Source: Aphanizomenon flos-aquae FACHB-1287
Lineage (GTDB): Bacteria; Cyanobacteriota; Cyanobacteriia; Cyanobacteriales; Nostocaceae
Direction: 5' to 3'
DNA: 49,088 nt
Assembly: GCF_014698755.1 (NCBI RefSeq)
Contig: NZ_JACJTO010000033.1
Coordinates: forward strand, 1-49,088
Part shown: positions 14,582 to 37,001 of the stretch, one piece after another
Layout of the letters: each line of letters opens with the position of its first letter
Numbering within the stretch: position 1 is the first letter of the stretch
Translations under genes and position numbers: made by a program
The notes under the pieces: model-generated
What the model saw: the letters and a program-made list of their open reading frames with translations, nothing else
What the model was told of the DNA's origin: nothing
Databases searched by the model: none

Positions 14582-16099
14582 ATGTGCGGAATTGCGGGTA
14601 TTATCAGACTAAATACCAATAATGGAAGATTAGAAGCAAAAATCGAAAAGATGCAAACTGCACTCAAACATCGTGGACCAGATGATGCAGGTATTTATAT
14701 TTCAACTGACAAACAAGCAGCTTTAGCTCACACTCGGCTTTCTATTCTTGATCTCAGTGCTGCTGGACATCAACCCATGTCCACCACTGACAACCGCTAT
14801 CATATTACATTTAACGGAGAAATTTACAACTTTCAAGAACTACGAGAAAATCTTATTTCTCAAGGTGAAAAATTTCATTCCCAAACAGATACAGAAGTCA
14901 TTCTTAAACTATATCAAAGAATCGGTTCCGATTGTGTCCAACATTTACGAGGAATGTTTGCTTTTGCGATTTGGGATGATTTAGAAAAAACTTGTTTTTT
15001 AGCTCGTGACCATTTAGGAATTAAACCACTTTATTATTACCAATTAGGTACAACTTTAGTATTTGCGTCCGAACTCAGAGCGGTTTTAGTATCTGGTTTA
15101 CCTGCAATTAATATGAGTTTGGAAGGATTATATGGTTATTTAACAACTGGTTCAGTTCCCGAACCATACACCCTAATCGCTGACATTTATTGTTTATCCG
15201 CTGGTAATTGGCTATATTGGCAGGATGGAAATATTACTAAAAAACAATATTGGCAAATAAATTTTACTCCTGAAAAAATTTCTCCTCCAGAAGCGCGAGA
15301 AATAGTCCGTAAAGCTTTATTAGATTCCATTCAACATCATTTTATTAGTGATGTACCCGTAGGAATTTTCCTCAGTGGTGGTATTGACTCTACAACCATT
15401 CTCGGTTTAGCAACCCAAACTCAAAAATCACAATTATCTACCTATTCCATAACTTTTGCTGAATCGGAGTTCAATGAAGGAGAATTAGCTCAAAAAATCG
15501 CTAATCATTTCGGTGCAAAACACACAGAATATCAAGTTACATCATCCTTTGCTAAGACCATATTACCAGATTTCCTCGCAGCAATTGATCAACCAAGTAT
15601 TGATGGCTTTAATACATTTTGTGTCTCTAAAGTTGCCCATGATCATGGCATGAAAGTAGTATTATCAGGTTTAGGAGGAGATGAAATATTTGGTGGATAT
15701 CAGTCATTTCAAAAAGTTCCCCAAATGGTAGAATGGAGTAAAAAACTAAATATATTACCTTTCCTACGTACGGGTTTGGGTATAGGATTAGAAAGTTGGG
15801 GAAATTCACCAAGAATAAAAAGATTCGGTGATTTTTTAACACAAACCCCTAGTTTTGCTTCTGCTTATGGTACTTTTCGCGGTATTTTTTCTCATCAAGA
15901 AGCTTGTATGATTATTAATCAATTATCAATAAGCACCCCGATATTACCCCCCTTAGTCCCCCCTTATCAAGGGGGGAAACCGGAATCTAGTTCCCTCCCC
16001 TTAGTCCCCCCTTATCAAGTGGGGAAACCGGAATTTAGTTCCCTCCCCTTAGTCCCCCTTATCAAGTGGGGAAACCGGAATCTAGTTCCCTCCCCTTAG
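14582..16099 (+). CDS. asnB: Asparagine synthetase-type amidotransferase, N-terminal part (frameshifted)
   Basis: This starts MCGIAGII, with the class II glutaminase nucleophile Cys2. Further glutaminase motifs follow: KHRGPDDAG (about 29-37), FNGEIYNF (about 78-85) and FAIWDD. The synthetase domain has the PP-loop SGGIDSTT (about 264-271) and LSGLGGDEIFGGYQSF (about 360-375). From about residue 455 the sequence is made of repeat-derived PLVPPYQGGKPESSS units. In the third unit a C6 tract has only five Cs, and translation runs into LIKWGNRNLVPSP and stops at 16099. Restoring one C gives a continuous 681-residue frame to 16626. In this locus the enzyme may amidate a sugar acid (as proposed for WbpS-like proteins) rather than make free asparagine. 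It may be inactive as sequenced. Confidence 0.85.
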   Translation: MCGIAGIIRLNTNNGRLEAKIEKMQTALKHRGPDDAGIYISTDKQAALAHTRLSILDLSAAGHQPMSTTDNRYHITFNGEIYNFQELRENLISQGEKFHSQTDTEVILKLYQRIGSDCVQHLRGMFAFAIWDDLEKTCFLARDHLGIKPLYYYQLGTTLVFASELRAVLVSGLPAINMSLEGLYGYLTTGSVPEPYTLIADIYCLSAGNWLYWQDGNITKKQYWQINFTPEKISPPEAREIVRKALLDSIQHHFISDVPVGIFLSGGIDSTTILGLATQTQKSQLSTYSITFAESEFNEGELAQKIANHFGAKHTEYQVTSSFAKTILPDFLAAIDQPSIDGFNTFCVSKVAHDHGMKVVLSGLGGDEIFGGYQSFQKVPQMVEWSKKLNILPFLRTGLGIGLESWGNSPRIKRFGDFLTQTPSFASAYGTFRGIFSHQEACMIINQLSISTPILPPLVPPYQGGKPESSSLPLVPPYQVGKPEFSSLPLVPLIKWGNRNLVPSP

Positions 16100-16217
16100 T
16101 CCCCCCTTATCAAGGGGAGAAACCGGAATCTAGTTCCCTCCCCTTAGTCCCCCCTTATCAAGTGGGGAAACCGGAATCTAGTTCCCTCCCCTTAGCAAGG
16201 GGAGGGTTAGGGTGGGG
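15946..16217 (+). repeat. Five 48-bp repeat units inside the amidotransferase gene
   Basis: Units anchored on TTAGTCCCCC begin at 15953, 16001, 16049, 16096 and 16144 and a partial unit at 16192; spacings are 48, 48, 47, 48 and 48. The core CCCCCCTTATCAAGGGGGG of unit 1 is a perfect palindrome, and later units carry AAGTGGGG or AAGGGGAG instead. Each full unit encodes 16 residues (PLVPPYQ[G/V]GKPESSSL with variants). The 47-bp spacing reflects a C5 instead of C6 run at 16054-16058. Similar CCCCCCTT...AAGGGGGG sequence occurs at 17785-17814 at the end of the next gene. Confidence 0.92.
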
Positions 16218-16626
16218 TTCTACTCCAGAAGATGAAGTTAGCTTTTTAGAACTAAGTTGTTATATGCGTAATCAATTACTACGAGATAGCGATGTAATGA
16301 GTATGAATTGGGGTCTAGAATTGCGTGTTCCTTTTGTGGATAAAAATTTATTAGAAGCTGTTGCACCAATTCCTAGTAATATTCGTTTAGCACAGGGGAA
16401 AAAACTGTTAACACAAGCAATTACAGAAATACCTGATTGGGTAATAAATAGACCAAAAAAAGGCTTTTCTTTTCCCTTTGAAAGTTGGATGAATAGTGAA
16501 TTTGGTGATTATTTTGATAATGTCCATCAAAACCTCAATATCCCACTAAATATACCCCTTAAACCTTGGTATCGTCGTTGGAGTTTAGCAATATTACACC
16601 ATTGGTGGGAGCAGATTAACTTATGA
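16066..16626 (+). CDS. asnB: Amidotransferase C-terminal part (downstream of frameshift)
   Basis: This frame carries the rest of the asparagine-synthetase-type enzyme. After the repeat-derived residues come STPEDEVSFLELSCYMRNQL, LRDSDVMSMNWGLELRVPFVD (in part: SMNWGLELRVPFVD), KKLLTQAITEIPDWVINRPK and KGFSFPFESWM. These are the conserved C-terminal motifs of AsnB synthetase domains, where the aspartyl or acyl substrate and AMP are handled. The frame is open from a GTG at 16066 but has no natural start, so it is the second half of the same gene. Its stop overlaps the ATG of the next glycosyltransferase (ATGA), which implies that the two were translationally coupled before the frameshift. Confidence 0.82.
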   Translation: MGKPESSSLPLVPPYQGEKPESSSLPLVPPYQVGKPESSSLPLARGGLGWGSTPEDEVSFLELSCYMRNQLLRDSDVMSMNWGLELRVPFVDKNLLEAVAPIPSNIRLAQGKKLLTQAITEIPDWVINRPKKGFSFPFESWMNSEFGDYFDNVHQNLNIPLNIPLKPWYRRWSLAILHHWWEQINL

Positions 16627-17807
16627 AAGTTCTCCATATAATTCCTTCAGTTGCGACGGTTCGCGGTGGTCCGAGTCAGGCTATTTTAGAAATGGTGAAA
16701 GCTTTAAGAAAAAATGATATTGACGCGGAAATTATCACTACTAATGATAATGGAGAAGATATATTAGATGTACCTTTAGGAAAATTTATAAATTATCAAC
16801 AAGTTCCTGTCCAGTTTTTTCCCCGATTTTCTCCTGCTATTCACTTTTTGAGAGAATTTGCTTTTTCGAGAGAATTAACAATGTGGTTATGGCAAAATAT
16901 CCATAATTATGATTTATTACATATTCATGGTATTTTCTCCTATGCTCCGAGTATAGCAATGGTGATCGCCCGCTGTCAAAAAGTTCCTTATATTGTTCGT
17001 CCTTATGGACTACTTTGTGAATGGTCATTACAGCAAAAAGAGCGCAAAAAAAAGCTTTATCTTAAACTCTTAGAAACAGCTAATCTTAATCACAGTCAAT
17101 CAATTCATTTTACATCAATTTTAGAACAAAAAGAAGCATCACTATTAAATTTGACTTCTTCCAGTTTTATCCTTCCCCTTGGTATTTATGCCCCTCAAAG
17201 AATTCTTAATACTCGTGAAAAGCTAAAAAAACACCTTAACATCCCCGCAGATGAACCAATTGTCTTATTTTTATCTCGCTTACATCCTAAAAAAGGTTTA
17301 GATTACTTAATTCCCGCATTAGGTAAGTTATCTCATTACCGCTTCACATTTATTATCGCAGGTAGCGGCGATTTAGATTATGAAAATGAGTTAAAAACCC
17401 TAGTTACAACTCATGGAATTAAAGAGAAAACATATTTTGCCGGATTTGTCAAGGGTGAAATCAAGGATTTATTAATGCAAGGAGCAGATATATTTGCGCT
17501 AACTTCCTATTCCGAAAACTTTGGTATATCAGTTCTAGAATCCCTAGCTGCGGGTACTCCAATTATAATTACCCCTGGTGTAGCACTCAGTGATATAGTC
17601 CAGCAACAACATCTGGGATATGTTACAGAACTTAATATTAATGATATCGCTACCACAATTCAAAATTTCTTAGATCATCCTCAAGCAGCTAAAAAAATGG
17701 GTGATAGTGCTAGGAAATTTATTTTAGATAATTATACATGGGATAGCATATCATTAAAAATGATTTCTGTTTACCAAGAAATTACCCCCCTTAATCTTCC
17801 TTTGTAA
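16623..17807 (+). CDS. GT4 family glycosyltransferase
   Basis: This 394-residue GT-B protein has VLHIIPSVATVRGGPSQAIL at the N-terminus (nucleotide/acceptor loop RGGPSQA), YDLLHIHGIFSYAPSIA, IVRPYGLL and a C-terminal domain with IVLFLSRLHPKKGLDYLIPA, FIIAGSGDL, TYFAGFVKGE and the EX7E segment LTSYSENFGISVLESLAAG. It resembles WcaI/PssE-like sugar transferases of exopolysaccharide loci. The ATG overlaps the preceding stop by 4 bp. The last residues (TPLNLPL) and the stop lie inside a CCCCCCTT...AAGGGGGG repeat, so the native C-terminus may have been replaced. It is the last gene of the locus and converges on cobQ. Confidence 0.9.
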   Translation: MKVLHIIPSVATVRGGPSQAILEMVKALRKNDIDAEIITTNDNGEDILDVPLGKFINYQQVPVQFFPRFSPAIHFLREFAFSRELTMWLWQNIHNYDLLHIHGIFSYAPSIAMVIARCQKVPYIVRPYGLLCEWSLQQKERKKKLYLKLLETANLNHSQSIHFTSILEQKEASLLNLTSSSFILPLGIYAPQRILNTREKLKKHLNIPADEPIVLFLSRLHPKKGLDYLIPALGKLSHYRFTFIIAGSGDLDYENELKTLVTTHGIKEKTYFAGFVKGEIKDLLMQGADIFALTSYSENFGISVLESLAAGTPIIITPGVALSDIVQQQHLGYVTELNINDIATTIQNFLDHPQAAKKMGDSARKFILDNYTWDSISLKMISVYQEITPLNLPL

Positions 17808-17814
17808 AGGGGGG
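17785..17814. repeat. CCCCCCTT/AAGGGGGG palindrome over the gene end
   Basis: This is an 8-bp perfect stem (17785-17792 and 17807-17814) with a 14-base loop. The stop codon TAA (17805-17807) of the glycosyltransferase sits at its right arm. It may serve as a terminator-like structure between two convergent genes, and it belongs to the same repeat family as the inserts at 15946-16217. Confidence 0.75.
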
Positions 17815-17891
17815 AGACAGAACTTATTCCCCTCTCTTTGATAAGGATAGGGTTAGTGTGAGAAAGACATAAAAAAATCTGCTTTTCCCGC

Positions 17892-35759: not shown

Positions 35760-36638
35760 CTATGTCAATGCTAATTTAGCAGCGCCGACCATTCCCGCTG
35801 TATTTCCTAATTCTGCTCGTAGAATTTGTAACCCTACGCGGGAAGTTGGTAAAACTCTTTTTTCAATTTCTGCTGTTAGTGACGGTAAGAAAAACTCAAA
35901 ACTCGCGCTCACACCACCACCAATAATAATTGCCTGGGGTGTCAGCACATAGAGTAGACTTGTTAAACCTATTCCTAAATCTTTACCATATTCTCGCCAA
36001 AAAGTCAAGGCTTCTGGATCTCCACTTTGGGCAAGTGCGCCTAATTCCGCTGGCTCTTTGCCTGTACGACGACGGATAGCAGCAATGGAAGTATATTGTT
36101 CTAAAGAACCTTGATTGCCACTATTACACATTGGTCCGTCAGAATTTAGGGTAATTAAACCTAATTCTGCTGCTGCACCTTGATGTCCCACAAATAATTT
36201 ACCATCTAGAATAATTGCTCCACCAACGCCGGTTCCCAAAGTCAGTAAAATCAAATTGGGGAAATTTCGGCCAGCACCTAACCAAGCTTCTCCTAAACCA
36301 GCACAGTTAGCATCATTTGCCAGAATTGTTGGTTGACCAGTTTTAGTTTCTAACCAATCTGCTAAAGGTACATTGTCCCATCCTACCAGATTAATGGCAA
36401 CTTTTGCAACTCTTCCCATAGCATCAGTAGGTCCAGGAGTACCTAAACCAATGGCAATAGTTTCATGATTGGGGTCAATTTGTGATATTGCATCTACTAT
36501 TGCAGATAATACAGCCTCTGGTGTTGCAGGTTGGGGAGTATCTACAGATAAAGACTTTAAACAATTACCATCTGCTGTAAACCGTCCCAACTTAATCGCA
36601 GTTCCCCCTAAATCAATACCAATTACTTGTTTTGTCAT
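35760..36638 (-). CDS. ROK family sugar kinase (glucokinase-like)
   Basis: This 292-residue actin-fold kinase has the phosphate-1 motif VIGIDLGGTAIKLGRF (5-20), ILANDANCAGLGEAWLGAGR with the catalytic Asp and LLTLGTGVGGAIILDGKLF. The usual ROK zinc motif CxCGxxGCxE reads CNSGNQGSLE here, so only the first Cys remains. Zinc is probably lost or bound differently. It likely phosphorylates glucose or a related hexose. The start codon abuts the STRR array at 36639-36724, so the 5' untranslated region is repeat DNA with no Shine-Dalgarno sequence. Four base pairs separate it from pyrG. Confidence 0.88.
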   Translation of the reverse strand: MTKQVIGIDLGGTAIKLGRFTADGNCLKSLSVDTPQPATPEAVLSAIVDAISQIDPNHETIAIGLGTPGPTDAMGRVAKVAINLVGWDNVPLADWLETKTGQPTILANDANCAGLGEAWLGAGRNFPNLILLTLGTGVGGAIILDGKLFVGHQGAAAELGLITLNSDGPMCNSGNQGSLEQYTSIAAIRRRTGKEPAELGALAQSGDPEALTFWREYGKDLGIGLTSLLYVLTPQAIIIGGGVSASFEFFLPSLTAEIEKRVLPTSRVGLQILRAELGNTAGMVGAAKLALT

Positions 36639-36724
36639 TAGTTAGTTGTTCGTTGTTAGTTGTTAGTTGTTAGTTGTCAGTTGTCAGTTGTCAGTTGTCA
36701 GTTGTCAGTTGTTAGTTGTTAATT
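36639..36724. repeat. STRR heptamer array 1 (TTAGTTG / TTGTCAG)
   Basis: This consists of about 12 tandem heptamers, first TTAGTTG-type, then TTGTCAG-type, then back. TTGTCAG is the classical STRR1 heptamer described in Calothrix and other heterocystous cyanobacteria. It directly abuts the ROK start codon on one side and approaches the stop of the 53-residue gene on the other. Confidence 0.92.
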
Positions 36725-36738
36725 ACTCATTCCCACTT

Positions 36739-36900
36739 CTATTGATTTTTCCTAATAACTTGCACATTTGCAATTGGGTATGAATTATTATGTGCTTGTT
36801 GCCAATTAATAATTGGCGCACCCTTTAAAATACCCGATAAAGCTACAGAAACCATAAACCCACCAGTAGCAGCCGCAATTAAAGTAATGTTATCTTTCAC
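36739..36900 (-). CDS. 53-residue single-pass membrane protein (unannotated)
   Basis: This small gene starts with GTG at 36900, with GAGGGAG 5 nt upstream, an excellent ribosome binding site. The product begins VKDNITLIAAATGGFMVSVA and continues LSGILKGAPIINWQQAHNNS, ending VQVIRKNQ. Residues 6-25 form one hydrophobic, Gly/Ala-rich segment suited to a membrane helix. The remaining 28 residues are polar. No family is recognised. The frame is closed at TAG 36739 and lies exactly between two STRR arrays (36639-36724 and 36935-37001). Support comes from the ribosome site, the codon-like composition and the sensible protein. It could be a short peptide of the upstream permease operon. Confidence 0.6.
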   Translation of the reverse strand: MKDNITLIAAATGGFMVSVALSGILKGAPIINWQQAHNNSYPIANVQVIRKNQ

Positions 36901-36934
36901 ACAACTCCCTCAATAATAATTACATTTTTGTTAG

Positions 36935-37001
36935 CTGACCACTGACCACTGACCACTGACCACTAACCACTAACCACTGACCACTGACCACTGACCACTA
37001 A
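36935..37001. repeat. STRR heptamer array 2 (CTGACCA / CTAACCA)
   Basis: This is about nine to ten tandem heptamers, mostly CTGACCA with CTAACCA variants. It ends directly at the stop codon of the DppC-like permease gene. With array 1 it brackets the 53-residue gene. Confidence 0.9.

Follow-up and report, generated by a model that had tools for sequence, protein, structure and literature searches.

A tandem palindromic array within an AsnB-type amidotransferase gene of Aphanizomenon flos-aquae FACHB-1287, with filled, empty and frameshifted alleles in one cyanobacterial genus

Introduction

The best-known palindromic elements that are read in frame come from Rickettsia; these Rickettsia palindromic elements (RPE) lie within unrelated protein genes and vary between species, as described in the available text of two reports (PMC2229807, PMC10969869). 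Repetitive extragenic palindromes (REPs) are a second comparable class. According to the accessible portion of one survey, intragenic REPs occur in several species, clusters of them encode 43-82 residues in Thauera and R. conorii, and the cyanobacterial families include GTAG-12, -15 and -16 (PMC3733652). In the cyanobacterium Anabaena sp. 90, the available part of the genome report counts 147 miniature inverted-repeat transposable elements (MITEs), 132 of them intergenic and 15 in disrupted ORFs that led to pseudogene calls (PMC3542288).

Here we describe a palindromic element in a 49,088-nucleotide stretch of Aphanizomenon flos-aquae FACHB-1287 (NZ_JACJTO010000033.1; hereafter the window), where a tandem array of its units interrupts an asparagine-synthetase-type (asnB-type) gene. 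By analogy, the array would work like the Rickettsia elements and the intragenic REPs.

Results

The features of the locus are collected in Table 1. Five full palindromic units span 15949-16187 within the asnB-type gene, and the core CCCCCCTTANNAAGGGGGG, sought on both strands with up to 3 mismatches allowed, matches the window 12 times, as compared to 0.02 expected from shuffled sequences; all 12 fall between 15958 and 16204, in the array. These counts bear out an earlier note on this DNA, which had placed such an array inside the gene and held that it interrupts the synthetase domain; Pfam PF00733 is indeed matched in two separate segments on either side of it. The array has a G+C fraction of 0.55, as against 0.36 in the gene upstream and 0.34 downstream. 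When folded it is moderately more stable than shuffled sequences (z -2.51), as expected of palindromes, and a search of 15800-16400 with Rfam at the gathering threshold returned no match. Ends like the 3' end of the array are present in several intergenic copies of the element. Elsewhere the window carries a 21-bp tandem repeat at 1777-2013 (11.3 copies, 99% matches) and, at 36632-36999, arrays of the heptamers GTTAGTT and CTGACCA, a kind that is common in Nostocaceae.

Table 1. Coordinates of the array, its host gene and the adjoining gene in the window.
Feature	Position	Strand	Remarks
Tandem array of palindromic units	15949..16195	+	About 5.2 copies, period 48
Starts of full units	15949, 15997, 16045, 16092, 16140	+	Unit starting at 16045 is 47 bp
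Unit 3	16045..16091	+	47 bp; C run one C short, shifting the frame
3' end of element	16186..16219	+	Second palindrome, then GGTTAGGGTGGGGTT; end of the copy in the asnB-type gene
ORF1, AsnB-type amidotransferase: glutaminase domain and first part of synthetase domain	14582..16099	+	GATase_7, GATase_6, Asn_synthase (PF00733) positions 2-146; TIGR01536 above cut-off
ORF2, rest of array and C-terminal synthetase part, other frame	16066..16626	+	Asn_synthase (PF00733) positions 199-307
GGGAAAC, hypothetical -1 slip site	16069..16075	+	No other X_XXY_YYZ heptamer of the ORF1/ORF2 overlap is in ORF1 phase
Glycosyltransferase	16623..17807	+	Top NCBIfam match HpsP, under that model's cut-off

The proposal of a 16-residue in-frame addition per unit breaks down at unit 3. 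Spacing from core to core across the five cores is 48, 47, 48 and 48, and the value of 47 arises because the C run of unit 3 has five C, whereas that of the other four units has six. By way of this frameshift ORF1 runs into a stop at 16097-16099, and of the two parts that mark an AsnB-type glutamine-hydrolysing amidotransferase, an N-terminal glutaminase with a Met-Cys start and an Asn_synthase domain, the second is split over two frames. As assembled, the asnB-type gene of this genome is therefore broken by one missing base. Except for this single break both halves are open, and dN/dS against the eight other orthologues of the genus is 0.15-0.28 before the frameshift (441 codons) and 0.07-0.23 after it. 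No decay was seen by dN/dS after the frameshift, although with only 128-132 codons in that part nothing short of marked decay would be visible. The frameshift is therefore either recent or an assembly error.

A sequencing or assembly error within 247 bp of near-identical repeat, the real gene being intact and in frame, is a serious candidate to which we give rather less than an even chance. The assembly consists of 85 contigs, the eight other orthologues are open, no decay follows the shift and, according to the available text of PMC4907049, short-read assembly misrepresented a tandem repeat in the bloom-forming Anabaena sp. WA102. Such an error would nevertheless have dropped a base from a short run, of five to six C, and a 12-copy in-frame array of the same genome, described below, is without any such break. 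The other main candidate, which falls just short of an even chance, is a young pseudogene, in which the unstable array has given rise to a real frameshift and function is being lost from a dispensable gene. The stop and the split Pfam domain fit this account, and the gene would be dispensable because it is patchy in the genus, 7 of 16 genomes being without a match at the threshold used; the openness of each half apart from the one break, and the low dN/dS on both sides of it, argue the other way.

The frameshift could also be bypassed in part during translation. Within the 61-nt overlap of the two frames lies one in-phase heptamer, GGGAAAC, at which -1 ribosomal slippage would continue translation for 183 residues, as far as the end of ORF2. 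The palindromic unit that follows would act as the stimulatory stem; that stem is predicted at -18.6 kcal/mol 5-6 nt downstream of the heptamer (-16.1 at 8 nt). We regard this partial rescue as very improbable, as nine such heptamers occur in the 1518 nt of ORF1, so that about 0.36 would be expected in the overlap by chance, and the letters of the heptamer simply belong to the element. An extension of the same idea, which we rate as less probable still, makes the palindromic unit a protein-compatible selfish element that combines an open frame, the GGGAAAC slip heptamer and a stem provided by the next unit. If that were true, out-of-frame arrays would still give some full-length protein, and the element could multiply inside genes without killing them.

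Two glycosyltransferase genes are found near the asnB-type gene in the window. Their proximity, together with homopolymer runs within a tandem array, would suit a contingency locus in which slippage in the C run turns on or off an amidotransferase that acts in surface polysaccharide synthesis. This reading is very unlikely: the unit length is divisible by three, the frame is open in eight of eight other orthologues, and contingency-type switching generally involves homopolymer runs longer than five to six. By eye, the end of the adjoining glycosyltransferase ORF (17785-17858) lies in a seemingly degenerate copy of the element that supplies its last codons and stop.

Of the 16 genomes of the genus, nine have the asnB-type gene at a threshold of E <= 1e-150. 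The element occupies the same site, flanked by the conserved segments FSHxEA and PEDEVS, in seven of the nine orthologues (the window genome included), and its length differs among them; the remaining two, G009 and G011, are empty. All eight orthologues other than that of the window are open to the end. The segment measures 25 residues in both empty alleles. The six other filled alleles, which all keep the frame, have segments of 32, 44, 44, 59, 59 and 81 residues. Comparison with related strains, which the earlier note had suggested, thus yields both repeat-free and different-length alleles, and the outcome that it named as counting against its reading, orthologues that all lack an insertion, is not what was found. 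Its wider view that the repeat is tolerated within coding sequence holds in the relatives, where the six other filled orthologues carry it in frame at differing lengths, but the copy in the window is frameshifted as assembled.

The insert was absent from all seven close homologues outside the genus (65-72% identity) and from all nine of a second such set, at least one sequence (L020/L034) being common to both; five sequences of 40-43% identity (L025-L029) were treated as paralogues and left out of the homologue comparison. A scan of contigs gave a best match of 78% identity and none as close as the genus orthologues, among the matches listed (at least 80 loci; near records possibly omitted). 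The same glycosyltransferase lies directly downstream of the gene in 8/8 other genus loci, filled and empty alike. G001, the most divergent genus orthologue (81% identity), is filled, whereas the closer G009 (89%) and G011 (88%) are empty, a distribution that a single insertion can explain only with recombination or loss. Trees of the N-terminal and C-terminal parts are discordant, several nodes of the C-terminal tree being weakly supported. Together with the filled state of G001, this discordance makes recombination between strains likely.

To describe the insertion site, we numbered the protein by an empty homologue from Anabaenopsis (L030). In an alignment of 63 homologues the length of the segment ranges over 20-42 residues, block 451-460 has the highest entropy of all 10-residue blocks (3.44, as compared to a protein mean of 2.16) and block 461-470 has the largest gap fraction (0.30). 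A structure model of this homologue based on the 63 sequences (mean pLDDT 95.0, pTM 0.94) replaced a first model from 9 sequences, which was set aside (mean pLDDT 56.7). In the later model, predicted helices 438-449 and 476-502 flank the site, where confidence dips to 83-84, as it does in a few other stretches, e.g. residues 11-20 and 551-560. The nearest solved relatives by sequence are TsnB9 (7ylz) and E. coli AsnB (1ct9), which Foldseek likewise ranks at the top. The alignment to 1ct9 sets about 97 query residues (390-486) opposite 15, so the E. coli enzyme seems to lack this region, although the match that follows is weak (6.6 bits). By alignment and model, the insertion site is thus a variable stretch with a predicted helix on either side. 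The surface loop that had been proposed agrees with this picture as to the variable stretch; its placement at the surface is a presumption from the variability and the model confidence.

The element belongs to a dispersed family. Its core pattern has 64 forward and 67 reverse matches in the genome of the window, as compared to 1 and 1 for a reversed control (up to 2 mismatches), and with up to 1 mismatch it is found at least once in 46 of 60 relatives, the control matching in 2 of 60; the highest count in one relative is 198 forward matches (up to 1 mismatch). Among the 40 clusters in the listed stretches of the window's genome, 30 are clear of any ORF of at least 100 residues, 6 are contained in long open ORFs, 3 overlap ORF ends and 1 is the broken asnB-type gene. 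In the relative G011, 46 of 48 clusters lie outside ORFs of at least 150 residues and 2 inside (among the clusters listed, in 40 stretches). The element is therefore mainly intergenic, but the description of it as normally confined to intergenic DNA was too strong. Tandem amplification is also seen among intergenic copies. Array periods are 27, 30, 45 and 51/54 inside ORFs and mixed outside; this comparison was dropped as a test, because any array whose period is not divisible by three would disrupt its ORF and so never be counted inside. In the one-unit form, one of the six frames is stop-free, and the asnB-type gene is read in this frame (PPLVPPYQGG...), whereas the core alone leaves two of three forward and one of three reverse frames open. 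In G011, an ORF at L166 309-2387 carries an in-frame duplication that, by eye, covers palindrome and host sequence together.

Of the six intragenic clusters of the window's genome, three occupy separate places in a type ISP restriction-modification enzyme, and the others are in a nonribosomal peptide synthetase, an nSTAND-WD40 protein and aconitase B. Two of the three places in the type ISP gene (L111 553-5898, minus strand) have between them an array of 30-bp units, each encoding FNPINEGGLD. Among the orthologues read (at least 89% identity; a second G007 copy and matches of 35-39% identity were left out), four of seven are empty and three are filled, with inserts of 21-22 residues in two of them and, in the window's genome, an insert enlarged by the 30-bp array, which is in frame and has 12.2 copies. 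Intragenic arrays of the element thus occur in two genes of this genome. The gene for aconitase B (acnB) is present in 16/16 genomes of the genus, filled in frame in three (G000, G015 and G001) and empty in 13; the insert in the gene at L137 990-3584 (minus strand) is common to G015 and takes a slightly different form in G001. A 21-residue length difference near residue 110 of this protein was considered as a second insert and rejected, its DNA not being clearly the element.

Discussion

The element shares with RPE, as the available text describes them, palindromic repeats that lie in frame in unrelated protein genes and differ between species, a likeness of descriptions and not of sequence. 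In-frame palindromes with empty alleles were found here in the asnB-type gene (7 filled and 2 empty of 9, the window's own copy being frameshifted), in acnB (3 and 13 of 16) and in the type ISP gene (3 and 4 of 7). Unlike RPE, for which the accessible text gives 105-146 or about 150 bp, single units here measure about 45-95 bp by eye, the hosts are cyanobacteria, and in-frame tandem or near-tandem arrays occur in two genes of one genome. The GTAG and CGTC super-families of REPs are similar in being short palindromes that are mostly extragenic, with some within ORFs, according to the portion of PMC3733652 that was available. However, among 71 core copies checked, GTAG stands within 8 nt of a stem end in 2 and CGTC in 0, so the tetranucleotide typical of REPs is not a feature of this element.

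Like cyanobacterial MITEs, as portrayed in the accessible part of PMC3542288, the element is small, dispersed, hairpin-forming and chiefly intergenic in Nostocaceae; the 15 intragenic MITEs of Anabaena sp. 90 lie in disrupted ORFs, whereas 6 of the 40 clusters here are in long open ones. Its outer arms, ACCCCCCTTARTC and GGGTTAGGGTGGGGT, candidate terminal inverted repeats, pair imperfectly by eye. Compared by eye, filled and empty alleles reveal neither an exact insertion nor a clear target-site duplication: host residues were lost at the site and replaced. Very small repeated elements of cyanobacteria, reportedly the subject of work by Elhai in 2008, resemble the element in the same respects of size, dispersal, hairpin formation and mainly intergenic position in Nostocaceae, by description only. 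A literature search for the letters or peptides of the element returned no match, most subscription journals lying outside its coverage, and in wider searches, of which the broad queries gave top-ranked matches only, no title or opening of an abstract dealt with the element family.

Taken together, we consider it quite probable that a mobile palindromic element was inserted once in the ancestor of the genus, that its array then changed in length and that the frame was later lost in the window genome. The element, from a family widespread in this cyanobacterial order, would have entered a length-variable linker of the AsnB-type amidotransferase gene, and the gene would have survived because the insertion landed in the element's sole stop-free frame. 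Slippage or unequal recombination between near-identical units may then have altered the array length, with selection retaining the frame, as relatives show frame-keeping changes only, and alleles may have been spread or lost through recombination between strains. In the window genome, which has five units, the loss of one C in unit 3 would have broken the frame, either very recently or only in the assembly.

Within one cyanobacterial genus, alleles of the same genes that are filled, empty or amplified form a natural series. Such a series addresses how selfish repeats may become protein sequence, how frequently they break genes, and whether their inserts are neutral in core enzymes such as aconitase B.
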